This document shows positions 8,865 through 26,536 of a DNA stretch of 64,000 bases, in pieces. Each line of letters opens with the position of its first letter. Positions within the stretch are counted from its first letter, which is position 1. Both the position numbers and the translations under genes were made by a program. This stretch comes from Phocaeicola salanitronis DSM 18170. Its GTDB lineage: Bacteria > Bacteroidota > Bacteroidia > Bacteroidales > Bacteroidaceae. The notes beneath the pieces were generated by a model. The model was not told the origin of the DNA. It saw only the letters and a program-made list of their open reading frames with translations, and did not search any database. The stretch covers positions 310,001 through 374,000 of the forward strand of contig NC_015164.1 in the NCBI RefSeq assembly GCF_000190575.1. Direction: 5' to 3'.

Positions 8865-8923
8865 CTATTTATCTAAGAGCCTGTTTGAATTTTCCAATAA
8901 AGTAATATTCTATCAGCTTCTTA

Positions 8924-9115
8924 GAAGCTGTTTTGAATTTATCGTGCGATGATTTGGGATGAGTTTTTGAGGCATTTTCGCTTCTGTGATGAGGAAGATA
9001 GCGGGCTATCTGACGAAGAACAGGAGCGAAAAGGGCCAAAAAATCGCCCAAAGCACACACGAAAACGGATACATCAAGCCAAGAAAAACTTTTTGAAGAA
9101 ATTCAAAACAGCTTC
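8924..9115 (-). mobile_element. R2 MITE, complete copy with TTA target duplication
   Basis: A 192-bp non-coding element with terminal inverted repeats GAAGCTGTTTTGAATTT...AAATTCAAAACAGCTTC, flanked by TTA at 8921-8923 and 9116-9118. Complete copies also lie at 29704, 30446, 32108 and 60934. Just before it (8877-8920) is a short degenerate R2-like piece whose end CAGCTTC meets this element's GAAGCTG head to head across the TTA. The terminal repeats and 3-bp TWA duplications suggest mobilisation by a transposase of the IS5 superfamily encoded elsewhere; that is inference. Confidence 0.85.
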
Positions 9116-9144
9116 TTATAAAGAAGAATAAAAAACATTGGACC

Positions 9145-10353
9145 ATGACATCGATAAAACTAAAATTCAGACCGTCAGCGGTGCAGGGCAAGGAAGGCTC
9201 TTTGGTGTTCCAGCTGATACACGGACGCTCGGTGCGCAGGATAACGAGCGGGTATAGAATCTTCGCCGGGGAATGGGACAGTAAGACAGGGCGGATATTG
9301 CTTCCGTCGCTGTCGTCGCCGCGCTACACTTTCCTCGTTTCCCTGAAAACAGAATTGCAATGGGAGCTTGAGAACCTCAGGCGGATGGTGGAGGAAAGCG
9401 AAACAGCCACGGGAAATGTAAGCCTTGACGAAATCGCCGCCAACTTCCAACCTTGTACGGACACGCCGGACAGCGTATTCAACTTTATCCACGAACAGGT
9501 ACGGCACAAGAAAAAGCTCGGCAAGGTACGCTCAGTCGAAACCTATCGCTCGATGCTCAACAGCCTCATGCGCTTCCGTAAGGGCGTAGACCTGACTTTC
9601 GACATGGTGGACGGCGGGCTTTTGGAACTCTACGAGGCGTGGATGCAAGGATGCGGACTGACGCGCAACACCACCTCTTTCTATATGCGCATACTGCGCA
9701 CTAACTACAAGTTGGCGGTAGAGAAAGGGCTTACGCCCGACCGTCATCCGTTCAGGCACGTCTACTGCGGCATGGACAAGACAGTGAAAAGGAGCATGAC
9801 TTTCATCGAAATCAAGAAAATCAATGACTTGGATTTATCACGGAACCCAAGCCTGGACTTCGCGAGGGACATGTTCATGTTCAGTTTTTGTACGCGCGGA
9901 ATGTCCTTCATCGATATGGCGTATTTGAAGAAAACCGACCTTGACAACGGCTGCCTGGCATACCGCCGCAAAAAGACGGGGCAGCTGCTGACAATGGAAT
10001 GGACCGAGCAGATGCAGGCCATCATGGACAAGTACAAGCCCAACGGCACAAGATACCTCTTGCTCATCATCACCCGTGAGGACGGGAGCGAACGCAGGCA
10101 GTACCAGAATCAAATGAGGAAAATCAACCGGCACCTGAAAGAAATAGCACGCCTGGCAGGGCTGCCGCTGCCGTTGTCTATGTATTATAGCCGACACAGT
10201 TGGGCCACCATAGCTCGTGGCAAGGACGTTCCGCTGTCGGTCATCAGCGAAGCCCTCGGACACGATTCGGAAACGACAACGCAGATATACCTCGACTCGA
10301 TAAAGTCAAGTGAAGTGGATAAGGCAAACCGGATGATTTTGGAGGGTCTCTGA
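9145..10353 (+). CDS. Tyrosine site-specific recombinase (probable promoter invertase)
   Basis: A 402-residue phage-integrase-type recombinase of the Bacteroidetes kind: an N-terminal arm-binding region (IKLKFRPSAVQGKEGSLVFQ), a SAM-like core-binding domain (~residues 110-210) and a C-terminal catalytic domain. Visible catalytic residues are Arg in FCTRGMSFIDM, Lys in YRRKKTGQ, His-Arg in YYSRHSWATIA, His in LGHDSETT and the nucleophilic Tyr in TQIYLDS. Its stop lies 30 bp before the inverted repeats of an invertible promoter that reads into upxY, so by position and by analogy with the Tsr recombinases of Bacteroides capsule loci it is probably the invertase. An R2 MITE ends 29 bp upstream of the ATG. 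General integrase activity cannot be excluded. Confidence 0.9.
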   Translation: MTSIKLKFRPSAVQGKEGSLVFQLIHGRSVRRITSGYRIFAGEWDSKTGRILLPSLSSPRYTFLVSLKTELQWELENLRRMVEESETATGNVSLDEIAANFQPCTDTPDSVFNFIHEQVRHKKKLGKVRSVETYRSMLNSLMRFRKGVDLTFDMVDGGLLELYEAWMQGCGLTRNTTSFYMRILRTNYKLAVEKGLTPDRHPFRHVYCGMDKTVKRSMTFIEIKKINDLDLSRNPSLDFARDMFMFSFCTRGMSFIDMAYLKKTDLDNGCLAYRRKKTGQLLTMEWTEQMQAIMDKYKPNGTRYLLLIITREDGSERRQYQNQMRKINRHLKEIARLAGLPLPLSMYYSRHSWATIARGKDVPLSVISEALGHDSETTTQIYLDSIKSSEVDKANRMILEGL

Positions 10354-10383
10354 CGCAAACAACAGTTTCACGAAAATGGACTT

Positions 10384-10582
10384 CTCCTATTATGAGATGG
10401 ACATTTTCGTAAAACATCTAAATGCCAACAACTAACAGGACTTCCGTGAAAATATTCCGTCAACAAATTGCCAAATCGCTTGTCGCTTCATAAAAAATAA
10501 TAGCAAATAAACCTGCAAAAAACACTTGACATTTAATTATTATTGCTACATTTGCAGCGGAATGTCCATCTCATAATAGGAG
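10384..10582 (+). promoter_or_regulatory. Invertible promoter segment of the capsule locus, ON orientation
   Basis: Perfect 22-bp inverted repeats at 10384-10405 and 10561-10582 (core CTATTATGAGATGG and its complement) enclose 155 bp. The enclosed DNA carries TTG at 10526-10528, an 18-nt spacer and TACATTTG at 10547-10554, an exact Bacteroidetes promoter pointing right, towards upxY. Flipping the segment would turn the promoter towards the 3' end of the recombinase gene. A third partial copy of the core (CTATTATGAG, 10626-10635) lies outside, in the same direction as the left repeat. The layout is that of known phase-variable Bacteroides capsule promoters. Confidence 0.9.
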
Positions 10583-10742
10583 ACGGACAAAAAATCCGTC
10601 ATGAAAATCAATGCCAACACAAACGCTATTATGAGTGGTGACGGAGATGGAATAATCTTATGAAATTAAGGGAAGTCAACAGCCTGATTTGTGTAACTGC
10701 TTGTTATCGTGTAATTTGAGATAGCTTGCAGGACTAGAAGAA

Positions 10743-11354
10743 ATGTCCCTGCCTGAAGAAATGAACGAATCTCGGATTAATGCGCAAGACCGTCTTTCTA
10801 TAGAAAAAGACATATCTTCGGACGTAAATGGCCACCTCCAATGGTTTGTCATGCGCGACCTTAAGCGGTGGAACGCCAAGCTGTCAGCCTACGAGCTGTT
10901 CAAGAGTTTGAAGATACAGGTCTTTACGCCGATGGTGTGGAAACTGGTGACCCGGAACGGCAAGCGTTACCGGGAAGAAGTGCCTTTCATGCAGGACTTG
11001 CTTTTCGTGCATGACACACGGCTGGCGGTTGACCCGATAGTCGAGAAATACGACACCGTGCAATACCGCTACGTGCGCGGAGGTTACAAAATACCGATGA
11101 CGGTGAGGGAAGCCGACATGGAACGTTTCATCCATGCCGTGGAATCCACCGAGAATACACGCTATTACGCGCCTGAAGAAATATCCTCCGATATGATAGG
11201 ACGGAAAGTGCGCATCGTCGGCGGTCCGCTGGACGGCTACGAGGGCAATTTGCAGAAAATGCAGGGCGCACGCACCAAGCGGATGTTCGTAGAACTTCCC
11301 AACCTCCTTGCCGCTGCCGTTGAGGTGCAGCCTGAATACATACAGCTTATTTAG
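10743..11354 (+). CDS. upxY: UpxY family capsule transcription antiterminator
   Basis: A NusG-like protein of 203 residues: an N-terminal NGN domain starting at QWFVMRDLKRWNAKLSAYEL and a C-terminal KOW-type region (GRKVRIVGGPLDGYEGNLQKM). In Bacteroides fragilis UpxY proteins act on the 5' leader of their own capsule operon and stop premature termination. Here the gene is the first one after the invertible promoter, with a ~180-nt leader. A companion upxZ, usual in B. fragilis, is not present; the next gene is unrelated. The N-terminal ~25 residues before the NGN domain are poorly conserved, so the start is less certain. Confidence 0.93.
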   Translation: MSLPEEMNESRINAQDRLSIEKDISSDVNGHLQWFVMRDLKRWNAKLSAYELFKSLKIQVFTPMVWKLVTRNGKRYREEVPFMQDLLFVHDTRLAVDPIVEKYDTVQYRYVRGGYKIPMTVREADMERFIHAVESTENTRYYAPEEISSDMIGRKVRIVGGPLDGYEGNLQKMQGARTKRMFVELPNLLAAAVEVQPEYIQLI

Positions 11355-11364
11355 AGCCTGTTTA

Positions 11365-11673
11365 TAGTAGAACAAAATTGGTTTGCGACAAAATCTTGAT
11401 GTATTGTCATCCTGAACGAACGTGAAGGATCTCGTAGACATCCACGTGGGTGCATCCGAGATGCTTCACTTCGTTACCAATGACGGATTATCCTTAACCC
11501 TCTTGTCATTCTGACGACCGTAGGGAGGAAGAATCTCACATCCACGTGGATGTTTACGAGATCCTTCGCTGGCGCTCAGGATGACAATACCTGTCATAAT
11601 CGAATGGGTTTTCCGCAGGAAATAGGCACTCAGCATGACAAATGATTTTTCGCATTTTATTTCTGATTGACTA
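11365..11673. mobile_element. R3 element a, TAGT...ACTA ends with TA duplication
   Basis: A 309-bp non-coding element. Left end TAGTAGAACAAAATTGG... and right end ...TTCTGATTGACTA are imperfect terminal inverted repeats of ~30 bp shared with the element at 11879. TA lies on both sides (11363-11364, 11674-11675). The interior is a different imperfect palindrome built from GTCATCCTGA... AGGATCTCG... CATCCACGTGG...CGAGATCC...CAGGATGAC. TA duplications suggest an IS630/Tc1-type helper; this is inference. It begins 10 bp after the upxY stop. Confidence 0.75.
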
Positions 11674-11820
11674 TAAATTTTGCTCAGGTTAAGAAGCTGT
11701 TTTGAATTTCTTCAAAAAGTTTTTCTTGGCTTGATGTATCCGTTTTCGTGTGTGCTTTGGGTGATTTTTTGGTCCTTTCCGCTTCTGTTCTTCGTCAGAT
11801 AGCCCGCTATCTTCCTCATA

Positions 11821-11848
11821 GTAAAGACGCAAGATTTTGCGTCTCTAC
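11821..11848. repeat. R4 hairpin (GTAAAGACGC...GCGTCTCTAC)
   Basis: A 28-nt palindrome whose arms GTaAGACG-like/CGTCTCTAC match the hairpin at 14940-14968. It sits inside an R2 element; the R2 bases between CTTCCTCAT and AAAAACTCAT are replaced by it. Confidence 0.7.
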
Positions 11849-11878
11849 AAAAAACTCATCCCAAATCATCGCACGATA

Positions 11879-12090
11879 TAGTCAATCAGAAATGAATTGC
11901 GAAAAATCCGTTAATCCTTTATATTGAACACAGAGGCACAGAGGCACGGAGAAATAAATATATAAAGAAGGTAAAGACCATAGAGCCAGACTTTTACTCT
12001 GTGAACTCTGTTCTCTCAAAAAATAAAGCTCTGTGTCTTTGTGTCTCTGTGTTCCATTCCATTTTTTCGCAAACCAATTTTGTTTTACTA
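11879..12090. mobile_element. R3 element b nested in R2, TA duplication
   Basis: A 212-bp element beginning TAGTCAATCAGAAATG and ending TTTTGTTTTACTA, flanked by TA at 11877-11878 and 12091-12092. The interior is an inverted repeat, AACACAGAGGCACAGAGGC against TGTGTCTCTGTGTTC, that recurs at 36473 and 52395. It interrupts R2 six bases before the R2 right terminal repeat is complete. Confidence 0.75.
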
Positions 12091-12125
12091 TAAATTCAAA
12101 ACAGCTTCTTAAACTCCTCAAAAAA

Positions 12126-13247
12126 ATGTACACGATAGACCAATTCAAGTCCCAATGGAAAAGCCTTCACCATCCGTCCATGAGCGTGGATGGCGACGTA
12201 GCCTTCTTCTATCAGCTATACGGCAGGCTGTACCGTCTTGTCGGGCAGGAAGCGAGGTGCTTCGACAGCCATAGAATCCTTCCTTTCCTGCTTTACATAG
12301 AGAATACCGTCGCCGTCGGGCTTGACGGCGTTTACGAATACAGGTACCGCTGCGTAGGCGATGTGGAGAGTAGCTGGTGCGATGGCTTGGGAATGAGTGC
12401 CAAAGCCGGTTCCGAAGTCCACAACCTCGTGGGAAAGGCCGTGACAGACGCAAAGTGCAGTGCCCTCAGGCAATGGATGGTCGAAAGTGTGCTTTCAGGG
12501 GATTTCATCCGTTTGAGTGAAATGCTGGCTTGGTTTGCACGCGAAGACAGAATCTTGCGGCAAGTCTTTCCCGACCTGCGCTACCGTAAGGCGATGTTCA
12601 TGCGGTTTGTCGGAAAAAGGTTGGGGTCAAAGAAGATGCTGTGGGCTGACCTTGCCTTCAACTGGCGTGACAAGCACGGTTATTCCTTGGCGGATACCAT
12701 AGCCAAAGAGTTCCGTTACGAGACTTCTTTCGTGGACGGAAAGGAAAAGGCTTTGCTGATGGAAACGGCAGAAATGCTTGATGCAATCCATTCCGAACGG
12801 TTGGATACTTATACAGTTTTAGAGCGAAAAGACGAACGCACGTTCGCTTTGCGCCATAGGGACGGCCGTGTGTTCCATGACGTAATTTTCCCGACACCCG
12901 CTCCCCAAGACGTGCCAAGCCTTTATCTTGCCGCCCAACTCGTTACTTACAATAACAAAACATACATAAGCGGTTCCGCCGTATGGCTCGACGAGGAAGA
13001 CCTGCCCGTATGGAACGGTGAAACCGTCTGGCACGGCATCCTGAAGAAAGAGCAGGAGGCGGCAAGGAACATTTATTTCACCACTGCGTTCGGCAAGCGG
13101 ATAAACCTTTACGAAGACCTCTACACCGTGCCGTCCGACCCGGAGGAAGCCTATTATGCCGACATGGGCATCTATTTCGACGAGCCGAACATCTTTGATT
13201 TCTTAGGAGGCCGTCCGAATGGCAGGGTAATCTATTTGGGTGGCTGA
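12126..13247 (+). CDS. Unknown 373-residue protein downstream of upxY
   Basis: I do not recognise this protein. It starts MYTIDQFKSQWKSLHHPSMS at an ATG preceded by an A-rich stretch; longer frames upstream run through R2/R3 repeat DNA and are not credible. It is soluble, without signal peptide or membrane segment, mixed helix-rich in the first 250 residues, with a beta-rich C-terminal part (VTYNNKTYISGSAVWLDEEDLPVWNGETVW). Its base composition is GC-rich like upxY and unlike the AT-rich capsule genes after 17 kb. It has the same direction as upxY and would be under the invertible promoter unless the repeats terminate transcription. It may resemble DUF3843-type Bacteroidetes proteins, but I am not sure. 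Confidence 0.7.
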   Translation: MYTIDQFKSQWKSLHHPSMSVDGDVAFFYQLYGRLYRLVGQEARCFDSHRILPFLLYIENTVAVGLDGVYEYRYRCVGDVESSWCDGLGMSAKAGSEVHNLVGKAVTDAKCSALRQWMVESVLSGDFIRLSEMLAWFAREDRILRQVFPDLRYRKAMFMRFVGKRLGSKKMLWADLAFNWRDKHGYSLADTIAKEFRYETSFVDGKEKALLMETAEMLDAIHSERLDTYTVLERKDERTFALRHRDGRVFHDVIFPTPAPQDVPSLYLAAQLVTYNNKTYISGSAVWLDEEDLPVWNGETVWHGILKKEQEAARNIYFTTAFGKRINLYEDLYTVPSDPEEAYYADMGIYFDEPNIFDFLGGRPNGRVIYLGG

Positions 13248-13278
13248 CAGACAGCTTCTTAATTATTAATTGTTAATT

Positions 13279-13453
13279 ATGCGAATCAGGAGTTAAACGT
13301 AGTTATGTTTCACAGGAGTTATCACTTCGTTCAGGAGTTAAAGGCCAATAGCTTAACTTCTGAAAGCGGTGCAAAAGGTATTGGCATCTAACTCCCAGCC
13401 CGCACTGGCGGGCGATAACTACCTATAACTCCCTTTTAACTCCTGATTGGCAT
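13279..13453 (+). repeat. R1 repeat, copy C (complete)
   Basis: A 175-bp copy, almost identical to the one at 5135. It is embedded in AT-rich DNA: TTAATTATTAATTGTTAATT on the left and TTAATTATTAATTATTG on the right. Confidence 0.9.
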
Positions 13454-13471
13454 TAATTATTAATTATTGTC

Positions 13472-13885
13472 GTGTCCGACATAACCATAAACATAAACGG
13501 AGGAAACAACCAGATCCTCCCCAACGCTACGGAAGCCGTGCAGAATTTCTACGGCGGCCACTTTCCGGAACATCCGCTTCCCGACCCATCCGCTCAGGAA
13601 ACGGAACCTCCCGAAGCGCAGAAGCTTGCCCTATATATAAATAAGGAGAACCTCGGCCGCTATCTCTCCCTCATCGGCGAGTGCCGGTCGGCTACCGAAC
13701 TGGCACGTGTCGTGGTGGAGATGGTGGAACAAGAGCCCAGGCTCTTCCCCGAAGAAATGGTGAAAGAACGCTTCATCAGCCTCCTGCTGCCTTTCGCGTC
13801 CAAGCTTGAAAAAGGCAAGACCATCGACAACATCCGTGCCCGCATCAACGACGCATGGATGAACCGTCCCAAGAAACGTCCCTGA
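13472..13885 (+). CDS. Small unknown protein with N-terminal NGGxN...PNA motif
   Basis: A 137-residue frame starting at GTG (13472). It begins SDITININGGNNQILPNATE, then VQNFYG, a proline-rich linker, and a helical domain (LYINKENLGRYLSLIGECRSATELARVVVEMV...). The motif NGGxNxIxPNAxxAxQN recurs near the C-terminus of the next small protein (13993). There is no signal peptide. The start lies 18 bp after an R1 repeat. I do not know the function; similar small proteins occur in accessory regions of Bacteroides. The shared motif suggests that the two neighbours are related or act together. Confidence 0.65.
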   Translation: MSDITININGGNNQILPNATEAVQNFYGGHFPEHPLPDPSAQETEPPEAQKLALYINKENLGRYLSLIGECRSATELARVVVEMVEQEPRLFPEEMVKERFISLLLPFASKLEKGKTIDNIRARINDAWMNRPKKRP

Positions 13886-13992
13886 ACCTGTCTGAAAAGA
13901 CCGCCCTGTCATGAACCCGATACTCATTCCAAGAGGACAAGTCACCGGGAAACTTTACGCATTTCCGGCATTTCACTTGAAACTCTTGGCTG

Positions 13993-14310
13993 ATGAAAAA
14001 AAGCGCGTTCATAAAGAAGATAGCGGAAGCAGTCATCGAATCCATCCGGGAAGAGCATTTTGAGATACCTTATCTCAGGCAGATAGCCGCCGCTCAGGAA
14101 TACCTGAATGCAAACCGCAACGCCGACCTCTCGCACGTAAAGTGCCTTCTCCGCTGGATAATGCCCAAGGAGTACCACGATGAGATAGACAAGCTCCACG
14201 AGCGGGAAGAACCCAAGTTTGTCTGCATCATCAACGGCGGCCAGAACCTCATCGCCCCGAACGCGCAGCAGGCGGAACAGAACATACAGGATAGTACACC
14301 CGAAAAATGA
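13993..14310 (+). CDS. Small unknown protein with C-terminal NGGxN...PNA motif
   Basis: A 105-residue frame, MKKSAFIKKIAEAVIESIRE..., mainly helical, basic then acidic, ending with a segment KFVCIINGGQNLIAPNAQQA followed by EQN that matches the motif at the N-terminus of the preceding protein. It is soluble. Its TGA stop (14308-14310) is the first three bases of a 23-bp tandem repeat (next entry), so the repeat lies exactly at the 3' end of the gene. Function unknown. Confidence 0.65.
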   Translation: MKKSAFIKKIAEAVIESIREEHFEIPYLRQIAAAQEYLNANRNADLSHVKCLLRWIMPKEYHDEIDKLHEREEPKFVCIINGGQNLIAPNAQQAEQNIQDSTPEK

Positions 14311-14388
14311 ATATATACTGCATCGGCAGTTGAATATATACTGCAACTGCAGTTGAATATATACTGCAACTGCCGATGCAGTATATAT
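14308..14388 (+). repeat. Three 23-bp tandem repeats closed by an inverted copy
   Basis: Units start at 14308, 14331 and 14354, each beginning TGAATATATACTGCA. Perfect 20-base arms at 14311-14330 and 14369-14388 pair with each other (ATATATACTGCATCGGCAGT and its complement), with the second unit in the loop; the second unit also holds ACTGCAACTGCAGT. It could terminate transcription, be a protein binding array, or form alternative hairpins. It lies between two small unknown genes. Confidence 0.85.
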
Positions 14389-14431
14389 CCCTAAAAAATA
14401 GATATAGATAACGTTTCCAAAACATACATGT

Positions 14432-14839
14432 ATGACAAACGGAAAGAATAAAATCGAAGCCATATTCAGCGAACGCAACATAGATGAAGATTGCGATACC
14501 ATAGCGAGACTGCTTTCACCCTATCGGAAAACGATTCGTGAATCGCTAAATCAAGGCAGCTATGCCGAAGCTGCAACCATCCTGCTTGAAGTGCTCGAAA
14601 GCCTCACTTACCACTTCGTGGAAGACGAGCATTACAACTATTTCGATGATATGTACAGTCCCGACTATGTTTGCCAAGACATGATGGAGGCAATCATCAG
14701 CTCTATCAAAAGCGGGAATTTTCCGGCAGCAGAGTTGCAATGGTTGAAAGATGGATTGGAAAAATTGAAGCATACGGAAGCATACGAAAATTATGGTGTG
14801 CCGTATGTGTTAGATGTGTGGGAGAGATTTTTGGCTTAA
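14432..14839 (+). CDS. Small unknown acidic protein
   Basis: A 135-residue soluble protein, MTNGKNKIEAIFSERNIDED..., helical and acidic, with a distinctive aromatic/acidic centre (HFVEDEHYNYFDDMYSPDYV). The centre resembles what I have seen next to SWIM zinc fingers in Bacteroidetes proteins, but no CxC...CxH zinc site is present here. It is the third of three small genes in the same direction after upxY, and an R1 copy follows the stop by 10 bp. Function unknown. Confidence 0.65.
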   Translation: MTNGKNKIEAIFSERNIDEDCDTIARLLSPYRKTIRESLNQGSYAEAATILLEVLESLTYHFVEDEHYNYFDDMYSPDYVCQDMMEAIISSIKSGNFPAAELQWLKDGLEKLKHTEAYENYGVPYVLDVWERFLA

Positions 14840-14849
14840 ATGTTATTCG

Positions 14850-15073
14850 TGCCAATCAGGAGTTAAAAGGGAGTTATAGGCAGTTATCGCCCGCCAGTGC
14901 GGGCTGGGAGTTAGATGCCAATACCTTTTGCACCGCTTCTGTAGAGACGATGTGCACATCGTCTCTACTACGTGGCATATACAAAATGCACAAATAAATA
15001 CCGCGTGAAGTATAACTCCTGAACGAAGTGATAACTCCTGTGGAACTTAACTACGTTTAACTCCTGATTCGCA
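14850..15073 (-). repeat. R1 repeat, copy D (reversed, interrupted by an R4 hairpin)
   Basis: R1 in reverse orientation: starts GTGCCAATCAGGAGTTAAAA and ends TTTAACTCCTGATTCGCAT. It is ~224 bp rather than 175 because an R4 hairpin and about 35 bp of other sequence sit in its middle. Confidence 0.85.
14940..14968. repeat. R4 hairpin (GTAGAGACG ATGTGCACAT CGTCTCTAC)
   Basis: A perfect 28-nt palindrome at about 14941-14968 inside R1 copy D. Its arms match the hairpin nested in R2 at 11821. Confidence 0.8.
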
Positions 15074-15176
15074 TTATTCATTGAAAAGCATGCCTCCAAC
15101 ACCCAAAAATGATTAATGGATGCCGCTTGCCAAAGAATAAAATACCGATAAATTTCTTTCCATTGAAAAGATTTAT

Positions 15177-15184
15177 TATCTTTG
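15177..15184 (+). promoter_or_regulatory. -7 promoter element before the DUF6922 gene
   Basis: TATCTTTG, an exact -7 box, 27 bp upstream of the ATG at 15212. No well-placed -33 TTG is seen. Confidence 0.5.
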
Positions 15185-15211
15185 TTTTTATCTTCAAGCA
15201 TTTAAAGGAAT

Positions 15212-15517
15212 ATGACACAACAAGACTATATATCAAAATTGTCTCCCCATCTGTTTTGGGACATAGACAAAGAGCATGCAGATATGGACAGTTGCCCGTC
15301 GCAAATTATTCAGCGTGTGCTTGAATACGGGACGCTGGCCGACTGGAAACTGATACTCGCTTATTACGGATTAGATAAAATAGTCGCTGAGTGCCGTTCG
15401 CTACGGACATTGGATGCCAAAGCGCTATCCTTTATCTGCTGCATTTCACACACAGACAAAACCCAATACCGATGTTATCATACCACACAGTCGAGCCACA
15501 CACATTGGAACTTCTAA
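15212..15517 (+). CDS. DUF6922 domain protein (likely antitoxin-side partner of AbiEii)
   Basis: A 101-residue protein starting MTQQDYISKLSPHLFWDIDK; SPHLFWDID, IIQRVLEYGTLADWKLILAYYG and LDAKALSFICCIS fit the DUF6922 proteins that precede AbiEii/AbiGii nucleotidyltransferases in Bacteroidetes. By that context it would be the small partner or antitoxin. Its 3' end overlaps the following nucleotidyltransferase remnant by 46 bp, which is typical of the pair. The gene itself looks intact while its partner is broken. Confidence 0.7.
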   Translation: MTQQDYISKLSPHLFWDIDKEHADMDSCPSQIIQRVLEYGTLADWKLILAYYGLDKIVAECRSLRTLDAKALSFICCISHTDKTQYRCYHTTQSSHTHWNF

Positions 15518-15799
15518 AAGAACTTTCAAACCAAGACTTTCTTTCAGAAGCAAGACTGGTGGGCGGAACAGCACTGGCACTCCAGTATGGGCATCGTATG
15601 TCTGTAGATTTATCCACTACAAGATATTTTAGGATTTTATGCATCGAAATATCCTGAATATTCCATTTTCCGCGCATTAATGAGCCTGACCTATTTCGAA
15701 GATGCAGAAAACCAGTTCATGCCGAAAATGTTTACAAATGTGGCATGGGAAGATATAAAAGAAACCATTCGCAAAGAAGTCTCACGAATATCTTTATAG
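15472..15799 (+). pseudogene. AbiEii/AbiGii-type nucleotidyltransferase remnant
   Basis: The 5' part reads HTLELLKELSNQDFLSEARL then VGGTALALQYGHRMSVDLS, the nucleotidyltransferase start (GG-T-LAL-x-x-GHR-S-D) of AbiEii-family toxins. After about codon 45 the frame is lost, and the C-terminal end continues in another frame (FYASKYPEYSIFRALMSLTY to EVSRISL, stop at 15797-15799). Around 100 central codons are missing compared with a normal ~200-residue protein. The toxin is therefore dead, next to an intact DUF6922 gene. Confidence 0.75.
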
Positions 15800-15918
15800 G
15801 TGAACTGTCAGTAAGTCATTGCTTTTGAAATGCCCTTCATTTTTCACGTAAGCGTCCAATATTGCCCGTCCTAATAAATGTGCCTACCTTCACGCTGTTA
15901 ATATAAAAAGTTTATTGA

Positions 15919-16110
15919 GAAACTATTTTGAATTTCTCCAAAAAGTTTTTCTTGTCTTGATGTATTCGTTTTCGTGTGTGCTTTGGGCGATTTTTTGGTC
16001 CTTTCCGCTTCTGTTCTTCGTCAGATAGCCCGCTATCTTCCTCATCACACAAACGGAAATGCCTCAAAAACTCATCCCAAATCATCGCACGATAAATTCA
16101 TAACAGCTTC
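15919..16110 (+). mobile_element. R2 MITE, diverged copy
   Basis: A 192-bp R2 copy with a mutated left end (GAAACTATTTTGAATTT) and an altered right end (AAATTCATAACAGCTTC). No TWA duplication remains (flanks TGA/TGG). It lies directly before the start of an IS66 tnpA remnant. The 15800-15918 stretch before it holds nothing I recognise. Confidence 0.8.
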
Positions 16111-16251
16111 TGGTATGTGCAGCAGTAAAGATTTGAAAGGTTTTTCATCCGCTACAAGGGTGAGACCTATCCGAATGGCGAAAGCATACATGGGAGAAGT
16201 TTCAGTACCAATAATATGCTAGGACACTCCCTTATAATATTACAATGTTAT

Positions 16252-16503
16252 AACATGCACAACAAATCGATTAGAGGGACATCGTTCACCCTTCCATCCG
16301 TGAAGAAACTTAAGAAGCAATTAGGTGAAATGGATGCTTTCACACAATATATTGAAGTTGCTTTAAGGCATCTTGAAAAAGGGTACAATGCAACAGAAAT
16401 GACCAATAATCAATATGTCAAGGCTACCGCAACTGAACTGGGAGTGAATTTGCATAATATAGACATAGAAAACTACAAACAGAAAATCATTCTTCGGGGA
16501 TGA
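16252..16503 (+). CDS. Small unknown ORF inside IS66 remnant 1
   Basis: An 83-residue frame from ATG 16252 (MHNKSIRGTSFTLPSVKKLK..., in-frame ATG also at 16216), helical and basic, ending at a TGA that overlaps the beginning of the tnpC fragment. It has no resemblance to IS66 proteins I know and may be a fragment of another gene captured when the IS66 interior was lost. Low confidence that it is expressed. Confidence 0.3.
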   Translation, partial: NMHNKSIRGTSFTLPSVKKLKKQLGEMDAFTQYIEVALRHLEKGYNATEMTNNQYVKATATELGVNLHNIDIENYKQKIILRG

Positions 16504-16504
16504 G

Positions 16505-17113
16505 TTGAAGTCCGCCCGGTTTAAAGATACCATACATCAAGTTTGCATGTCCCATGCCAAAAATAAGTTTGTCAAGGCTTACAACCAGGGTGGTGAACCG
16601 GCAGCTGAACGCTTTTCCAATATCTTAAAGGAATTCTTTATGAGGGAGCGTAAATGTAATGATGCCGGATTTACCCCGGAAGAGAGGCTGCGGGAAAGGC
16701 AAAGCTTGGAAACGAAGGAACACCTGATAGAATTGCGCAGCCTGTTGGAGAGTGAACTGTCAAAAGATTCGGAATTCAGAAGCCAGTATTATACAGAAGC
16801 TCTTAATTACTTGAAGAAGTTTTGGAAGGAACTATTTGCTTTTCTGGACGATGGGGATCTTCCGATAGACAACAATCTGGCAGAACGGACCATCCGGAAG
16901 CTGACCACCCAGCGCAACAATTCACTCCATTATGGCAGTGATGCCGGGGCTGAGATGGCTGCAACTTATCATAGTGTAATAGGAACGGTAAAGCTTCATG
17001 GCAGTTCTGTCTGGAACTTCATCGGAACTTTTTTCAAAAATATCTTTAACGGGTGCAGGGATTATGTTAACATGGTTCCTGACAAAATCACTTTGGCTGC
17101 CGGCCAATGTTAA
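16505..17113 (+). pseudogene. IS66 transposase (TnpC), C-terminal fragment
   Basis: About 200 of the usual ~500 residues. It includes the DDE-domain end of IS66 transposases: HQVCMSHAKNKFVKAYNQGG, then LPIDNNLAERTIRKLTTQRN with the catalytic Glu in NNLAERTIR, and SDAGAEMAATYHSVIGTVKL. Its 5' end joins unrelated sequence at the GGGGATGAG codons, so the protein lacks its N-terminal DNA-binding and first catalytic residues. It cannot be active. Confidence 0.85.
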
Positions 17114-17199
17114 ATTCAAAACCAATTAATTAACAAAACTCGGTTTAGGGCACTGAAAAGTGCCCTTTCAAAAGGGGATGCCCTAAATTGAGTGCTTAC

Positions 17200-17421
17200 A
17201 AAATGTCGGTGGAAATAGATGACAGAGTCTGGTTGGGTTCCAATGTCATCGTTCTTCCCGGTGTTCATATCGGCGAAGGAGCCGTATGTTGTGCCGGATG
17301 TGTGGTGACAAAAAATGTGGAGCCTTATGCAGTGGTGGCTGGTATTCCGGCAAAGAAGGTCGGAGAAAGACCCAAAGTATTGAAATATGAGTTTGATGGG
17401 AAAAGTTGCAGATTGTACTAA
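17200..17421 (+). pseudogene. Hexapeptide-repeat acetyltransferase, C-terminal fragment
   Basis: Seventy-odd codons of a left-handed beta-helix acyltransferase: VEIDDRVWLGSNVIVLPGVH then IGEGAVCCAGCVVTKNVEPYAVVAGIPAKKVGERPK, the typical end of CatB/WcaF-like sugar O-acetyltransferases. The 5' part is replaced by the right end of IS66 remnant 1 at 17199. It is the first recognisable gene of the polysaccharide block, 17 bp before wzx, so IS66 has removed the start of the block. Confidence 0.8.
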
Positions 17422-17438
17422 AATGAATTTTAGAATAA

Positions 17439-18974
17439 ATGGCACAATCCAATAAAGAAAACAGTAAACGTATTGCAAAGAACACGTTACTGCTCTACAT
17501 ACGTCTTATCTTCACAATGGCTGTCGGGCTATTTACAAGCCGAGTCATATTAGCGACTTTAGGTGTAGAGGATTATGGGGTATATAATGTAGTTGCAGGA
17601 TTCGTTATGATGTTTTCTTTTTTTACGAGCTCGTTAGGAGCAGCCATCAGCCGCTTTTTGACATACGAGTTAGGGAAAGGAGAGAGCGGTAAACTGCAAC
17701 GCATATTTTCAACAAGCGTCAATGTGCAATTATTGCTTTCTTTGGCGATCTTGATTTTAGCGGAAGCTATTGGCGTATGGTTTGTCAACCACAAGTTGAA
17801 TATCCCTGCAGATAGGCTGTATGCCGCAAACTGGGCATTCCAATGTGCTATTTTATCGTTTATCTTTAACTTAATCAGTGTACCTTATAATGCTGCTATC
17901 ATAGCTCATGAAAGGATGAGTGCTTTTGCATACATCAGCATATTGGAAGTAACGTTGAAGCTTGCAATTGTTTATGTATTATACATATCCCCTATTGATA
18001 AGCTGATTACTTATTCCATATTGTTTGCCTTTGTCGGGTTGGTGATCCGATTGGTTTATGGAGGATATTGCAGGAAACATTTTGCTGAATGCCGTTATCA
18101 GACGGTTATCGACAAGACGATGTTGAAAGAAATTACGGGCTTTGCCGGATGGAATTTGTTGGGAAGTGGCGCATACTTGTTCAATACGCAAGGTGTCAAT
18201 ATTGTCATGAACCTGTTTTTTGGTGTGACTGTGAATGCCGCACGAGGTATCGCGACGCAGGTAGAAGGCGTTGTGAGACAGTTCGTGACAAATTTCACAA
18301 CAGCTTTAAACCCGCAAATCACAAAATCGTATGCAGCAGGTAATATGGAATATATGTACACTTTGGTTTGTCGTGGCGCGAAATATTCTTATTTCCTCAT
18401 GCTTGTCTTTGCTGTCCCGTTTATGTTTGAAGCTGACATAATATTGAAATTATGGTTGGACAACGTACCTGAATACACTTCCATTTTCCTTAGGTTGACC
18501 ATGGTTGGGACACTTTGCGATGTATTGGGTAATTCGACGGCAAACGCTTGTTGGGCAACAGGAAAAGTGAAGAAATATTACTTGTGTGTCGGTTCAATAG
18601 GCTCTTTGGTGTTCTTTATCTCATATGGTTTGTTCGCTTTCGGTTTTCCGGCATATACTTCGTATGTGGTTTTTATTGTCATTTATATAATTCTGATTTT
18701 TGTGAAACTCTATCTCATAAAAGGGTTGATTGATTTCCCTGTGGCAATGTTTTATAAAGAAACATTGCTAAGAATTTTACCGGTGACTGTTTGCACGTTC
18801 ATGATTACATCATTCTCCTATGGCATTCTGGAAGAATCCACAGGACGGATGCTGTTTACAGTTTTACTCTCAACCATTGCTTTAGGCATCAGTACATTTC
18901 TATTCGGGCTTGAACAGTCCGAAAGGCAAATCGTAAAAAACAAAATAGTTTACTTCAAGAAACGGTTTTTATAA
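17439..18974 (+). CDS. Polysaccharide flippase, Wzx family
   Basis: Moves lipid-linked repeat units across the inner membrane. The 511-residue protein is strongly hydrophobic with about 12-14 membrane segments (for example LLLYIRLIFTMAVGLFTSRV near residue 15), and has the family's N-terminal VILATLGVEDYGVYNVVAGF. Length and topology fit the MATE/MVF superfamily members of Bacteroides capsule loci. It starts 17 bp after the truncated acetyltransferase, with the same direction and AT-rich composition as the following genes. Confidence 0.9.
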   Translation: MAQSNKENSKRIAKNTLLLYIRLIFTMAVGLFTSRVILATLGVEDYGVYNVVAGFVMMFSFFTSSLGAAISRFLTYELGKGESGKLQRIFSTSVNVQLLLSLAILILAEAIGVWFVNHKLNIPADRLYAANWAFQCAILSFIFNLISVPYNAAIIAHERMSAFAYISILEVTLKLAIVYVLYISPIDKLITYSILFAFVGLVIRLVYGGYCRKHFAECRYQTVIDKTMLKEITGFAGWNLLGSGAYLFNTQGVNIVMNLFFGVTVNAARGIATQVEGVVRQFVTNFTTALNPQITKSYAAGNMEYMYTLVCRGAKYSYFLMLVFAVPFMFEADIILKLWLDNVPEYTSIFLRLTMVGTLCDVLGNSTANACWATGKVKKYYLCVGSIGSLVFFISYGLFAFGFPAYTSYVVFIVIYIILIFVKLYLIKGLIDFPVAMFYKETLLRILPVTVCTFMITSFSYGILEESTGRMLFTVLLSTIALGISTFLFGLEQSERQIVKNKIVYFKKRFL

Positions 18975-19023
18975 CTTATGCTAACATAATAATACCTACC
19001 TCTATAATTAAGCGTAATTCAAT

Positions 19024-20091
19024 ATGAAAATTCTGATATTGGGTGGCACAGGTGCAATGGGGAAGCATCTTGTCCAAAAAATGAAAGGGACGAATAATCA
19101 GGTGGCAGTGACTTCACGCCGTTTTTTTGCCGATAAAGAAAACATTTCCTTTATACAAGGAAATGCTCATGATTTGGACTTCGTAGACAACCTTTTGAGC
19201 AGAGACTTTGATGTCATTGTTGATTTCATGGCTTACGGAACGGAAGAGTTCAAATTGCGGTATAAGAAAATATTGGAGAATTGCGGACAATATATTTTTA
19301 TGAGTTCGTCAAGAGTCTATGCAGATTCGGAACAAGCATTAACAGAAAAATCACCTCGCTTGTTAGATGTTTGTACCGACAAGGAATATCTTGTTACAGA
19401 TGAATATGCCTTAGCAAAGGCAAGACAAGAGAATTTGTTGAGAAGTTCTGGTAGAAAAAATTATACGATAATTCGTCCTTATATTACATACAGCGAAAAC
19501 CGTCTTCAACTTGGCGTGTTGGAAAAAGAAAGTTGGCTATACAGGGCGTTGAAAGGACGAACAATCGTGTTCTCTAATGATATTGCGTATAAGTATACGA
19601 CTCTTACGTATGGCATGGACGTTGCTTCTGCAATCGTCCAGTTGATTGGTAATGAAAAAGCTTATGGAGAAACTTTCCATATCACATCTAATCAATCTTA
19701 TCCTTGGGAAAAAGTATTGAGTTGGTATTTGGATGCCATAGAACAGTATTCTGGGGTTAGGCCTCGTGTAAAGATGGAAGAAAAATCTTCCAATCTCAAG
19801 TCTGACCGCACAAAATATCAGGTGAAATATGATCGTTATTACAATAGGCGGTTTGACAATGGCAAGATAAGTAAATTTGTTGATACTTCGTTGTTTATCG
19901 CAGCCAAAACTGGCTTGCTACAGTGTATGGATAGTTTTATAAAAAATCAGTCGTTCCTTTATATTGATTGGAAGAGAGAGGCTTATTATGATAGACTTGC
20001 TGGGGAATGTGCCTCTATCAAAGAAATGCCTACGCTGAAACAAAAAATAAAATATTTGATTTTCCGATATATAATATTTCCCTATAAATAA
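19024..20091 (+). CDS. NAD-dependent sugar epimerase/dehydratase
   Basis: A 355-residue extended SDR protein: nucleotide-binding GGTGAMGKH at residues 7-15, FMSSSRVYAD with the active-site Ser region, and the catalytic Y-x-x-x-K in DEYALAKARQ. It probably modifies a nucleotide sugar for the polysaccharide. The C-terminal 130 residues are basic and do not look like well-known GalE or RmlB enzymes, so the exact sugar is open. The next gene (TPP enzyme) starts 9 bp after its stop, which suggests a shared pathway. Confidence 0.85.
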   Translation: MKILILGGTGAMGKHLVQKMKGTNNQVAVTSRRFFADKENISFIQGNAHDLDFVDNLLSRDFDVIVDFMAYGTEEFKLRYKKILENCGQYIFMSSSRVYADSEQALTEKSPRLLDVCTDKEYLVTDEYALAKARQENLLRSSGRKNYTIIRPYITYSENRLQLGVLEKESWLYRALKGRTIVFSNDIAYKYTTLTYGMDVASAIVQLIGNEKAYGETFHITSNQSYPWEKVLSWYLDAIEQYSGVRPRVKMEEKSSNLKSDRTKYQVKYDRYYNRRFDNGKISKFVDTSLFIAAKTGLLQCMDSFIKNQSFLYIDWKREAYYDRLAGECASIKEMPTLKQKIKYLIFRYIIFPYK

Positions 20092-20100
20092 GAATAGACA

Positions 20101-21849
20101 ATGGAACAATATTATACCAATGAGCGCAATGTGCAAATTCTTATTGCGCTCTTAAAAGAACATGGAATAAAGCGGGTGATTGCGTCTCCAGGCAGTACGA
20201 ATGTCACATTCGTAGGCAGCTTGCAGCAAGACCCATATTTTGAAATGTACAGTTGTGTAGACGAACGCTCGGCTGCTTACATGGCATGCGGCATGGCTGC
20301 TGAAAGTGGTGAACCAGTTGTTTTGAGTTGTACAGGTGCAACTGCTTCACGTAATTATTTTCCGGCTCTTACAGAGGCTTTTTATCGGAAACTGCCTGTA
20401 TTGGCAGTGACTTCTACACAGGATGAAAGCAAGATTGGTCACCTTGTAGCACAGGTCATAGACAGGACATGCCAGCCTAAAGATACAGTGGTTTGCAGCG
20501 TACATTTACAGACTGTACGTGATGAAAATGATTCGTGGGACTGCAATGTGAAAGCGAATGAAGCCATCCTTGCCTTGAAGCATCACGGAGGCGGACCGGT
20601 ACATATTAATTTGACCACCACCTATTCAAAAGACTTCTCTGTAAAAGATTTGCCTAAGCAAAGGGTTATCCGGCGTTACTCCATAGAAGATGAATTGCCG
20701 GCTTTTCCGAAAGGCAAAATAGCGGTATTCTGTGGCTCGCACATTCGGTGGACGAAGAAAGAAACAGATGCGATAGACCGCTTCTGCCACGCTTATAATG
20801 CTGTTGTGTTTACAGACCCTTCCGCAAATTATGAGGGGAAATATAAAGTAGCCTATAATCTGGTCGCGCAACAAAGAATAGATGACGCTAACCGTCAAGT
20901 AGATCTGTTGATCCATATAGGCAATATGAGTGATTTCCCGAACATCATCAATCCAAAAGAAGTGTGGCGTGTATCTGAAGACGGGAAAATTGTTGACCGA
21001 TACAAGAAACTTACAAATGTCTTTGAAATGCGTGAAGCAAGTTTCTTTAATCTTTATGCCGATAAAATGGCAATAGATAGCGATAATGACGATTCTTATT
21101 TGAATAATTGTCTTGCAGCTCAACACAGATTAGGAACAGAAATTCCAGACTTGCCATTCTCACATCTCTGGATTGCCAACCGGCTGCATGACAAACTTCC
21201 TAAAGATAGTGTATTGCATTTGGGGATTCTCAGTCCATTGCGCTCTTGGGGATATTTTGATATAGAAAAGAGCATAGATACATTCTGTAATGAAGGCGGA
21301 TTCGGGATTGATGGGAACCTGTCTACTCTTATCGGTGCTTCGCTTATGAATCCGAATAAACTTTATTTTGGAGTAGTGGGTGACCTGTCTTTCTTCTATG
21401 ATATGAATTCTCTTGGAAATCGGCATGTAGGAAACAATGTAAGAATATTGTTGGTGAACAATTCGTTAGGTGCTGAATTTTTGCTATTCAAACAAACCAA
21501 TATTATTAATTGTGTAAATGATATAGAATCTTACATTTCTGCTAAGGATCATTTTGGTCACCAGTCTCCGGCATTAGTCCGTCACTACACTGAAGATTTG
21601 GGTTTCGAATATTTGTCAGCATCTGCTAAAGAAGAGTTCGAGCAAGTGTATTCTCGCTTTATAACGCCTGAGTTGACGGACAAACCTATGATTTTTGAAG
21701 TGTTCACTAAAGTGGAGGATGAAAATGAGGCTTTGAAACAAATGTGGAATATAGAAAAATCTGCTAAACAAAAAATAAAGCAGTCGATCAAAAGCGTATT
21801 GAGTGATGACGTAATAGATTTAGGCAAGAAATTTTTCGGTAAAAATTAG
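20101..21849 (+). CDS. Thiamine-diphosphate enzyme, MenD/acetolactate-synthase-like
   Basis: A 582-residue ThDP enzyme. N-terminal PYR domain: IKRVIASPGSTNVTFVGSL, with the activating Glu in VDERSAAYMACGMA. C-terminal PP domain: NEGGFGIDGNLSTLIGASLM, then VVGDLSFFYDMNSLGNRHVG (GDxSFxxDxN, the ThDP/Mg site). It resembles MenD and related decarboxylating/ligating enzymes, but lies in a capsule block. I infer that it makes an unusual keto or branched sugar precursor, together with the SDR protein upstream. The substrate cannot be told. Confidence 0.82.
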   Translation: MEQYYTNERNVQILIALLKEHGIKRVIASPGSTNVTFVGSLQQDPYFEMYSCVDERSAAYMACGMAAESGEPVVLSCTGATASRNYFPALTEAFYRKLPVLAVTSTQDESKIGHLVAQVIDRTCQPKDTVVCSVHLQTVRDENDSWDCNVKANEAILALKHHGGGPVHINLTTTYSKDFSVKDLPKQRVIRRYSIEDELPAFPKGKIAVFCGSHIRWTKKETDAIDRFCHAYNAVVFTDPSANYEGKYKVAYNLVAQQRIDDANRQVDLLIHIGNMSDFPNIINPKEVWRVSEDGKIVDRYKKLTNVFEMREASFFNLYADKMAIDSDNDDSYLNNCLAAQHRLGTEIPDLPFSHLWIANRLHDKLPKDSVLHLGILSPLRSWGYFDIEKSIDTFCNEGGFGIDGNLSTLIGASLMNPNKLYFGVVGDLSFFYDMNSLGNRHVGNNVRILLVNNSLGAEFLLFKQTNIINCVNDIESYISAKDHFGHQSPALVRHYTEDLGFEYLSASAKEEFEQVYSRFITPELTDKPMIFEVFTKVEDENEALKQMWNIEKSAKQKIKQSIKSVLSDDVIDLGKKFFGKN

Positions 21850-21855
21850 GGCTGT

Positions 21856-23082
21856 ATGAATATATTGTTAATTGATCAGCCTTTATGGAATAGAGGGGAT
21901 GAGTCCGCCCATAAAGGATTAATAAGAAGTCTTATAAAAAACGTTTCCAATGTAAAAATCAAAGTCATGGAGATAGATGTCGAACAGGCAGCTATTGATG
22001 AGTTTGATATGCAGTTGCCGCAAGTGCAATTCATAAATATTCATTCTCTAAGCAGGACATGGTTTATGCGGATATTTAATCATGCTTATGAATATTATAT
22101 AGGATGGCTATTGTTGTGGATTCCAATTGGGCGAAAAATTAAAAAGATGTATGAAGAAGCAGACGTGATAATAATGGCACCAGGTGGTATAAACTTGGGT
22201 GGTTTTCAAGATTGGAAACATTTGTCTTTACTGCTCATTGCCCGTAAAATGAATAAAAAATTAGTATATTATGGAAGAAGCATCGGACCTTTCTATGACG
22301 AGAATTGGAAACAAAGACGTTTCAAAGAACTTGCATGTAAAGCTTTGAAATATTGTGAATTTGTTTCTTTAAGAGATGAGAAATCCGTTCAAGTAGCAAA
22401 AGAGTTGAATAACCTTTGTGTCCCAACTGTTGATTCGGCTTTTCTTGATTCTACGGAAGTTGAAATTCCCGTAGGAATACAGCAATTAATAGAGAATAAT
22501 CCATATATAGTTTTTGTTCCTAACGAATTACGTTGGCATTATGCTTTTCAAAATATTGAAGCTTCTGATATTAATAATTTCTATGTCCGTTTGGTTGACA
22601 TTATGCAAAAGTATTATCCTAAACATAAGATAGTCATGTTGCCACAAACTAATAATCAAAAGAGAAATGATTATGATTATTTCTGTGAATTGCGAGAAAT
22701 TTTCCAAAATAAAGAAAATATTGTAGTTATACCAGATACGTATAGCAGTGATATACAACAAGCTGTGGTTAAACGAGCTATCTTGATGGTTGGGGCACGT
22801 TATCATTCTATTGTTTTTGCCATTAATCAAGGCATTCCATTCATCAGCCTGAGCTACGAACATAAAATGTCTGGTCTGCTTGAAAAATTAGGAGAGACTG
22901 ACAGGATGATAGATATCGTTCCTATTTTTAGTAATTCTCAAACCATGGAAGTTGCTATCACACGTTTTGAGACTTTGTTAACAAACTTAGTCCGTCCTAT
23001 GGTAGCGCAAGAGAAAGCTAAAATAATAGCTAAAGAATGTTTTGATAAATTCGTGAAAGTATTAGCAACAGTTGGTGAATAA
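21856..23082 (+). CDS. Polysaccharide pyruvyl transferase family protein
   Basis: A 408-residue WcaK/CsaB-like protein. It begins NILLIDQPLWNRGDESAHKG, the family's N-terminal pattern (NxGDEA), and ends with ARYHSIVFAINQGIPFISLS plus YEHKMSGLLEKLG, the conserved donor-site region. Members transfer pyruvate from phosphoenolpyruvate to a sugar as a ketal, giving the polymer negative charge. It follows the TPP enzyme by 6 bp. AT-rich composition. Confidence 0.88.
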   Translation: MNILLIDQPLWNRGDESAHKGLIRSLIKNVSNVKIKVMEIDVEQAAIDEFDMQLPQVQFINIHSLSRTWFMRIFNHAYEYYIGWLLLWIPIGRKIKKMYEEADVIIMAPGGINLGGFQDWKHLSLLLIARKMNKKLVYYGRSIGPFYDENWKQRRFKELACKALKYCEFVSLRDEKSVQVAKELNNLCVPTVDSAFLDSTEVEIPVGIQQLIENNPYIVFVPNELRWHYAFQNIEASDINNFYVRLVDIMQKYYPKHKIVMLPQTNNQKRNDYDYFCELREIFQNKENIVVIPDTYSSDIQQAVVKRAILMVGARYHSIVFAINQGIPFISLSYEHKMSGLLEKLGETDRMIDIVPIFSNSQTMEVAITRFETLLTNLVRPMVAQEKAKIIAKECFDKFVKVLATVGE

Positions 23083-23175
23083 CATTTGAATGCCATATAT
23101 GCGTTGTGGTAAATTTATTGACGTATCAAATTGCCAATTTATTTAAGAAATGGCTTGTTATAAAATGATAATAAC

Positions 23176-24435: not shown

Positions 24436-25376
24436 AATTCTCAGTAACTATCCCTGCTTATAAAGCAAGGTTCTTGAAAGAGTGCATTGAAAGCATTCTT
24501 GCTCAAACGTATAAAGACTTTGAACTTATTATTGTCAATGATGCGTCGCCGGAAGATTTGACTTCTATTGTGAAATCGTTTAATGATCCACGCATTCGAT
24601 ATTATATAAATGAAACGAATTGTGGTGCGGTGAATGTGGTGGACAATTGGAATAAATGCCTTGAATATGCTACAGGAGAATATATTATTTGTATGGGTGA
24701 TGATGATATGCTGGCTGAAAATGCTCTGCAAACTTATAATGATTTGATCTGCAAATATCCAAATGTTGACTTGTTTCACTCACGAACAATGGCCATTGAT
24801 GAGAAAGGCTTCTCTGTGGCATTAATGCTCATAAGAAATGAATATGAAAGCCTTTGCAATTTTATGCTTTACCGTTTTTTCCCTCATAATGGGAATATGC
24901 AATTTATTGGCGATTTTTGCTTTCGAACCACCACTTTACGTAAAGTTGGAGGTTTTTATAAATTGCCATTAGCATGGGAAAGTGATGATATTACAGCTTT
25001 TATGGTTGCAAATCCCAATGGAGTAGTGCATACCGCACACCCTACTTTTTTCTATAGGATAAATGGGCAAACAATCACTAATACAGGTAATGTTGAGATA
25101 AAATTAGAATCTACAGACAAAGCTTATTTATGGTATAAAAATTTCTTAACATCATACTCTCCTGTAAATGTATTGGAACAACAGCTTTTATTGCAGATAA
25201 AACAGAATTTGGATTCGTTTTTTACTAAAAAGAAAATACATATAATAGCCTCAGATATTGCACAAAATGTATTTCATTCATTTAAGTGGATCTTTCATAA
25301 AAACAGCTACAACTTATCTAGTGTATTAGTATTGCAAAGTATAGCTAAAGGTATAGTCGATAGTATTAAACATTAA
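24432..25376 (+). CDS. Glycosyltransferase family 2
   Basis: A 314-residue GT-A enzyme: FSVTIPAYKARFLKECIESI, LAQTYKDFELIIVNDASPED, and the metal-binding GDDDML (DxD) near residue 95. The C-terminal half is variable, as usual for capsule GT2 enzymes. It would add one sugar of the repeat unit on the cytoplasmic side. The ATG overlaps the polymerase stop. Confidence 0.9.
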   Translation: MKFSVTIPAYKARFLKECIESILAQTYKDFELIIVNDASPEDLTSIVKSFNDPRIRYYINETNCGAVNVVDNWNKCLEYATGEYIICMGDDDMLAENALQTYNDLICKYPNVDLFHSRTMAIDEKGFSVALMLIRNEYESLCNFMLYRFFPHNGNMQFIGDFCFRTTTLRKVGGFYKLPLAWESDDITAFMVANPNGVVHTAHPTFFYRINGQTITNTGNVEIKLESTDKAYLWYKNFLTSYSPVNVLEQQLLLQIKQNLDSFFTKKKIHIIASDIAQNVFHSFKWIFHKNSYNLSSVLVLQSIAKGIVDSIKH

Positions 25377-26532: not shown

Positions 26533-26536
26533 TACA

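Follow-up and report, generated by a model that had tools for sequence, protein, structure and literature searches.

Does the DNA between a recombinase gene and upxY hold a capsule promoter that can be turned round, which enzyme would turn it, and what lies between that promoter and UpxY? The window is the whole stretch of DNA analysed, 64,000 nucleotides long. The features of the switch are the following.

9145–10353, + strand: tyrosine recombinase of 402 aa, the probable local invertase (Pfam Phage_int_SAM_5 and Phage_integrase).
10383–10405, + strand: left inverted repeat, with TCTC at 10383–10386, the centre CTATTAT at 10387–10393 and GAGA at 10394–10397.
10406–10560, no strand: invertible segment of 155 bp, found in the opposite orientation in homologous loci.
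10526–10554, + strand: promoter TTG-N18-TACATTTG, facing upxY (ON), its position and motif class the same in homologous loci.
10561–10583, − strand: right inverted repeat, the identical site on the − strand.
10626–10635, + strand: third partial copy, CTATTATGAG, with the left arm missing and judged not to be a recombination site.
10743–11354, + strand: upxY, a NusG-family antiterminator of a divergent branch (NF033644 above cut-off; tree).

The switch repeats are perfect and enclose 155 bp, both as given in the preliminary description, but they measure 23 bp, one more than the 22 bp stated there. In 20 first-order random windows the longest perfect pair with arms 40–400 apart was 13 bp. The real window contains 12 perfect pairs of at least 16 bp at these distances, several being the ends of a high-copy element of about 200 bp, so the switch pair is not singled out by length alone. 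The promoter at 10526–10554 is the sole match to TTG-N17-22-TANNTTTG in 10341–10760, in agreement with the single TTG/18-nt promoter directed at upxY that had been described. The 64-kb window has 10 matches on both strands, with about 0.02 expected per 155 bp. Inverted repeats, a Bacteroides-type promoter and a place before a capsule operon, as in Bacteroidales invertible capsule promoters, are all present; the polysaccharide genes lie on the same strand, 6 kb away.

Homologous loci were collected to compare promoter orientation. A scan of one genome per species yielded nine loci, and among 399 family genomes, 96 had recombinase matches at E 1e-100 or better. Eighty stretches (the top of the match list and the window's genome), the nine and the window made up 90 loci, of which 87 were distinct once the repeat records L047, L048 and L107 had been dropped. 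Orientation was called by a script for loci in which the recombinase gene is followed by perfect repeats of 13 bp or more at a spacing of 100–300 bp. Sixty of the 87 loci qualified; the other 27 include early contig ends, loci lacking such repeats and wider-spaced pairs (L051, L112). The promoter was OFF in 45 loci and ON in 13, with one locus showing both orientations and one neither. Where the recombinase was at least 64% identical to that of the window (12 loci), six were ON and six OFF, bearing out the expectation that the segment is not fixed in one orientation among relatives.

The comparison is plainest between Paraprevotella clara (L102), ON, and P. xylaniphila (L103), OFF. Their flanks are collinear (left 92%, right 85% identical), and the inner segments are 48% identical unflipped (shuffled 50%) and 92% identical flipped. 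The window's inner segment likewise rose from 51% to 74% identity with L046 on flipping, and from 48% to 78% with L103. Both orientations are therefore found, in homologous loci of other species. Contigs ending about 100 nt after the recombinase gene (L045, L050) are possible signs of mixed orientation and were left unused because their ends do not fall on the repeat.

Judged by its sequence, the locus is a phase-variable capsule promoter of an already known kind, ON as assembled and placed before upxY. The preliminary description had read it in this way, and the NF033644 match of UpxY and the homologous loci in both orientations sustain that reading. The assembly has one orientation, as it would if the repeats were a fixed relic of an ancestral inversion and the segment were now locked in this strain. 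This is hardly credible, as drift would erode such a relic and here the 23-bp repeats are perfect, both half-sites and the recombinase frame are intact, and orientation differs between close species.

Two other recombinase-adjacent promoters were seen in the same genome. At L181 (G000:C1:4020169-4022643) the inverted repeats are 23 bp long and 154 bp apart, and the promoter is ON; the gene after it is NusG-like, within a frame of 539 aa. At L126 (G000:C1:2492515-2493711) 15-bp inverted repeats lie 145 bp apart and the promoter is OFF.

The switch repeat is itself a dyad, CTC-N7-GAG. Of the 60 loci, 45 have this pattern, 11 of the 12 close ones among them, and 15 lack it; with the letters shuffled, the mean is 0.15 loci and the maximum 3. 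Other spacings of CTC and GAG are rare, with 0 to 2 loci each for N4, N5, N6, N8 and N10, and N9 in 10 loci. The seven bases of the centre take 31 different sequences among the 45 loci. In the 11 close loci there are eight versions, each starting with CT, and distant loci have mostly TT...AA; with centres patterned in this way, the bound arm may exceed three bases.

Tyrosine recombinases bind the arms of their sites, and the centre has to match the centre of the partner site. Shared arms around a varying centre would suit such an enzyme, and CTC-N7-GAG has the two inverted arms and a centre within the 6–8 bp of a tyrosine recombinase site. The suggestion that CTATTATGAG is the recognition core had to be given up: the CTC/GAG arms are shared, the 7 bases between them vary between loci, and CTATTATGAG is the centre joined to half an arm and therefore not the recognition unit. 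This site rule of shared arms and a varying 7-bp centre makes it possible to find homologous invertons and to tell from assemblies which way they lie. The papers in which a text search for site strings gave matches include none on bacterial invertons by title; supplements and figure logos lie outside that search, so the site may already be in print.

L029 (G059:C169) and L042 (G059:C150) have an inverton whose centre is the same and whose 12-bp arms are perfect, AATGTCCGTCTC-CTATTAT-GAGACGGACATT, and contig G059:C150 starts exactly at such a site. Genome G059 is absent among the recombinase matches listed and perhaps lies outside the searched set.

The recombinase scores above the Pfam cut-off for PF00589, the tyrosine recombinase catalytic domain, and aligns to XerD/XerC-like structures (4a8e and 1a0p chains) over the R-H-x-x-A and LGH...Y motifs. 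Its reading frame is intact and ends 29 bp before the left repeat, 1 bp closer than had been described; in most loci of the recombinase family the site follows about 30 nt after the gene. The genome-wide look for further repeat copies that the preliminary description had called for found CTATTATGAGATGG exactly twice in the 4.3-Mb genome, as the inverted pair of the switch. For TCTCCTANTATGAGA the window's genome has no further copy at 0–1 mismatch, and matches at 2 mismatches are no commoner than with a reversed-pattern control. An Mpi-type global switch, with one invertase and many genomic sites, does not fit an exact site that occurs as one pair with none else at 0–1 mismatch, and a site of this distribution favours local action.

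Nevertheless, the genome has 28 recombinase-like matches, four of them 44–49% identical to the switch recombinase over the full length, so another enzyme could act. The segment would then be inverted in trans with the neighbouring recombinase a bystander, and in Phocaeicola vulgatus CL10 a promoter is described as inverting beside a defective recombinase gene (PMC13114119). Here the neighbouring frame is intact, most loci of the family have the site just past the recombinase gene, and the site has no further genomic copy, all of which render inversion in trans very improbable. The switch recombinase itself probably acts on the switch and flips the segment in this strain.

The third partial copy had been thought to enable alternative, larger inversions, a role for which it appears unfit. 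It has AACG where the site has TCTC. The Paraprevotella sites (L102, L103) have changed to CTAATAT, yet their third copy is still CTATTAT. A copy that lacks the TCTC arm and does not track changes in the site is unlikely to recombine, and it was rejected as an alternative inversion site. Four loci keep the copy. It is unchanged in L044, L102 and L103, has altered letters in L046 and is missing from L030.

It is also improbable that the copy has a separate function, either by pairing as RNA with the right repeat or as part of a short leader ORF from 10601. In the predicted RNA fold of 10560–10742 the right repeat pairs with the third copy (the z-score of the whole leader is only −1.56), and the identity of the copy in three loci would be in keeping with such a role. 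Set against this, the repeat has changed in L102 and L103 without a compensating change in the copy, which does not even persist in all loci, and non-synonymous codon changes in the ORF exceed synonymous ones in 5 of 6 pairs, with the frame broken in L046. Neither the RNA partner nor a conserved leader peptide was retained as a candidate.

Between the third copy and upxY lies a conserved element.

10692–10740, + strand: leader hairpin element (model R1), from covariation on 32 sequences and a model search.
10697–10700 with 10728–10731, + strand: outer stem of the hairpin in model R1.
10703–10708 with 10720–10725, + strand: inner stem of the hairpin in model R1.

Ahead of upxY, thirteen loci have a stretch in common whose length from AACTGC to CAGG is always 38 nt, with variable letters inside. 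It is predicted to fold as CUGC, UU, six pairs, a loop, UU and GCAG. Six members folded singly gave z-scores of −2.2 to −4.7, and RNAalifold kept 8 pairs on the 13 loci with a small covariation term. Covariation in the 13 loci was modest. Two-sided changes were seen in 3 of the 10 pairs, vs 1.6 in shuffles, with 38 of 500 shuffles reaching that number, and the covariation score was 0.221 vs 0.138 shuffled (0 of 500 as high). In an alignment of 32 members, which was fitted to model R1 and hence is biased towards it, 42 cells changed on both sides vs 14.2 in shuffles and the score was 0.396 vs 0.140 (0 of 500 as high; slid versions at most 0.114), while six pairs changed on both sides, a number equalled or exceeded in 35 of 500 shuffles. 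A comparison of 10300–12100 with Rfam gave nothing near a gathering score, and no described family matched the hairpin. The hairpin was also considered as an intrinsic terminator and rejected, the first terminator-like site on the + strand in a scan of 10340–17500 coming not before 13242.

Model R1 with strict filters found 35 places in 30 of the 399 genomes. Loci were examined for all but five of the 35 places; of these 30 loci, 11 came from training genomes and 19 were new. In 29 of the 30 loci, and in 19 of the 19 new ones (the frames in L209 and L217 are partial), a same-strand UpxY frame starts inside the hairpin element or no more than about 50 nt beyond it. The exception is G094 (L111), which has kept the hairpin with a flippase gene in the place of upxY. 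In M. massiliensis An824 (L044) sugar genes take that place and the hairpin is absent, with no model match.

The 30 best-scoring UpxY loci among 301 genomes had no R1 match at E up to 10, and the hairpin was therefore rejected as an element of all UpxYs. Among ten loci in which a UpxY-like frame neighbours a distant recombinase, there was one match, at chance level (E 0.84). Conversely, loci were sampled by similarity to the window's UpxY (30 of 48 matches above 100 bits), and 27 of these 30 have the R1 element at E 0.01 or better. Of the remaining three, the first carries the element at E 0.2, the second has a match (E 0.03) that lies some 400 bp upstream, and L267 gave no match at all; by eye, L267 has a hairpin with CAGC/GCTG replacing CUGC/GCAG. 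Eight of the 30 loci are new relative to the R1 genome search, and five of these eight reach E 0.01 or better.

A quick UpxY tree was built from 65 sequences (70 intended, five without a sufficient match), with five long end branches flagged. The 30 hairpin-bearing sequences form one side of a branch of length 2.52 with 100% support, given as SH-aLRT and not bootstrap; the canonical UpxY rows were selected for high score, so the distance to them is partly by choice. In the sampled loci, then, the hairpin and one UpxY clade are associated, and the tree gives association, not cause. Inspection by eye of canonical UpxY leaders (L221, L225 and L230; L247 and L248) gave other recurring wording, such as CCGGTGTCCCC or AAAGCCCC...GG. 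Distinct leader signals may exist for other UpxY branches.

The hairpin could be a general leader feature, either an RNA-stability stem or a control of upxY translation, and not a signal for UpxY. Its place near the upxY start in all loci seen is compatible with this. Its company with one UpxY clade and its absence from canonical UpxYs are less so, and in G094 it has been kept although a flippase gene replaced upxY, a situation to which control of upxY translation is unsuited. A general feature of this kind is possible but doubtful.

Downstream of the switch the following were annotated.

17439–29421, + strand: polysaccharide genes (Pfam, NCBIfam), namely a MatE-family flippase, an epimerase, a pyruvyl transferase, glycosyltransferases and a DUF4422 protein.
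28268–28597, + strand: AbiH fragment among the polysaccharide genes (Pfam/NCBIfam).

UpxY matches NCBIfam NF033644 with 133.4 bits (cut-off 100) and stands first in the putative capsule operon, as expected of a UpxY antiterminator. Leaving out close loci truncated by a contig end, 11 of 14 distinct ones have a UpxY frame downstream, and 10 of 69 more distant distinct loci have a UpxY-like frame. The close loci without UpxY have glycosyltransferase-like and sugar-nucleotide genes (L044), a flippase gene by eye (L111) or neither (L106). The window's genome has no PF06603 match to UpxZ, and hence no UpxY/UpxZ pair, in a search in which control genomes were likewise silent. In the genus, UpxZ matches were obtained in 2 of 61 genomes (none among 37 of high quality), so the search is able to find it. 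The genome has seven NusG-like matches; only that of the window passes the UpxY cut-off, and cross-locus repression may therefore have nothing to act on.

The operon from the switch promoter probably reaches the genes from 17439 on. Before the flippase gene is reached, upxY is followed by 6 kb that contain repeat copies and transposase fragments, so the operon may be damaged or remodelled. This interval (11355–17438) includes an IS66 transposase fragment (16505–17113) and an AbiEii-like fragment (15391–15657), and a 404-aa frame at 12033–13247 has no Pfam or NCBIfam match. Just past upxY is a 52-nt inverted repeat (11401–11452 and 11539–11590, 87% complementary) that resembles an interspersed repeat. 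The element of about 200 bp is MITE-like with terminal inverted repeats and lies in the window at 8918–9121, about 11690–11885 (inverted), 29701–29899, 30441–30642 and 60931–61128. The genome has at least 40 near full-length copies at 97–100%, scored from 155 candidates. Two copies in opposite orientation flank the recombinase–promoter–upxY unit.

The best explanation of the whole, and a highly probable one, is that the local tyrosine recombinase flips the promoter segment and that the leader hairpin then serves the loading of UpxY. The recombinase would bind the inverted half-sites TCTC/GAGA around the 7-bp centre CTATTAT at both segment ends, and strand exchange at the two sites would turn the 155-bp segment round. 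In the ON orientation the promoter is predicted to drive transcription of a leader of about 180 nt and of upxY, continuing in the direction of the polysaccharide genes; in the OFF orientation it would be aimed back at the recombinase. Directly before upxY, the hairpin would pause or mark RNA polymerase and let UpxY load, and the loaded UpxY would carry the polymerase through the long operon.

The 2024 work of Saba et al. is said to give leader pausing and hairpins a part in UpxY action. The hairpin is probably a loading or pausing signal for its UpxY branch, read as RNA or as non-template DNA. UpxY proteins are described as keeping transcription from stopping early within their operon leaders (PMC7819879). 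Contact of UpxY with the upstream DNA duplex has also been reported (Saba et al. 2024, cited in PMC12691694), and LoaP binds a leader hairpin (PMC12691694).

Understanding of how a UpxY is targeted to its own operon is incomplete, and the covarying hairpin that follows one UpxY clade offers a direct, testable target for address recognition. The deep UpxY branch would have its own hairpin between the invertible promoter and upxY. Inversion would give rise to the transcript, after which the hairpin would admit only the matching UpxY, giving these capsule operons a two-step, address-coded switch. This extension is proposed tentatively, at somewhat less than an even chance. Were it true, other UpxY branches would have different leader signals, explaining one UpxY per own locus, and it would perhaps explain how the hairpin-bearing branch manages without UpxZ. 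A hairpin read as RNA would make UpxY the second NusG paralogue, after LoaP, to recognize a nascent-RNA hairpin. The hairpin matters more than the switch, which is a well-supported case of a known class.

Invertible, phase-variable capsule promoters are already described (PMC13114119, PMC12632263, PMC11892184). As far as the available text of PMC13114119 goes, the P. vulgatus CL10 locus is alike in having upxY first, a promoter between inverted repeats and a site-specific recombinase gene upstream, and its promoter inversion was demonstrated by PCR. It differs in its defective neighbouring recombinase. The comparison covers the layout of the locus, the repeat sequences being given in that paper in a figure only. 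The capsule promoters with tyrosine invertases in B. thetaiotaomicron, B. xylanisolvens and Parabacteroides distasonis (PMC12118408) share the recombinase, the inverted repeats with an inner palindrome, the promoter and the upxY/nusG-like gene. As parsed in this analysis, the palindromes in the text of that paper have a 7-base centre too. Their arms are GTTAC or GCTAC in contrast to (G)TCTC/GAGA(C) in the switch, which with TCTC/GAGA falls outside the GTTAC-N7-GTAAC class as that text gives it. Identical repeats occur there at several loci, whereas the window's genome has one pair.

In B. fragilis, promoter inversion under Mpi is likewise combined with UpxY antitermination, as PMC12632263 describes in its available parts. 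One global invertase serves seven loci there, unlike the local tyrosine recombinase at the switch, and UpxZ is present, with no UpxZ match in the window's genome. The invertible promoters upstream of resistance genes on Bacteroidales elements (PMC8748976) also join an invertase, inverted repeats and a promoter, often with upxY first, and some come from the same species, including P. xylaniphila. They drive resistance genes, whereas the switch precedes polysaccharide genes. The repeat logos of that paper are given in figures only and lie outside the comparison, so the switch site may be the same.

The hairpin bound by LoaP in the dfn leader has another sequence and a UNCG-type loop, and binding is shown for LoaP; for the UpxY hairpin it is a possibility. 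In both systems, by the account available in PMC12691694, a NusG paralogue goes with a small leader hairpin in its own operon.
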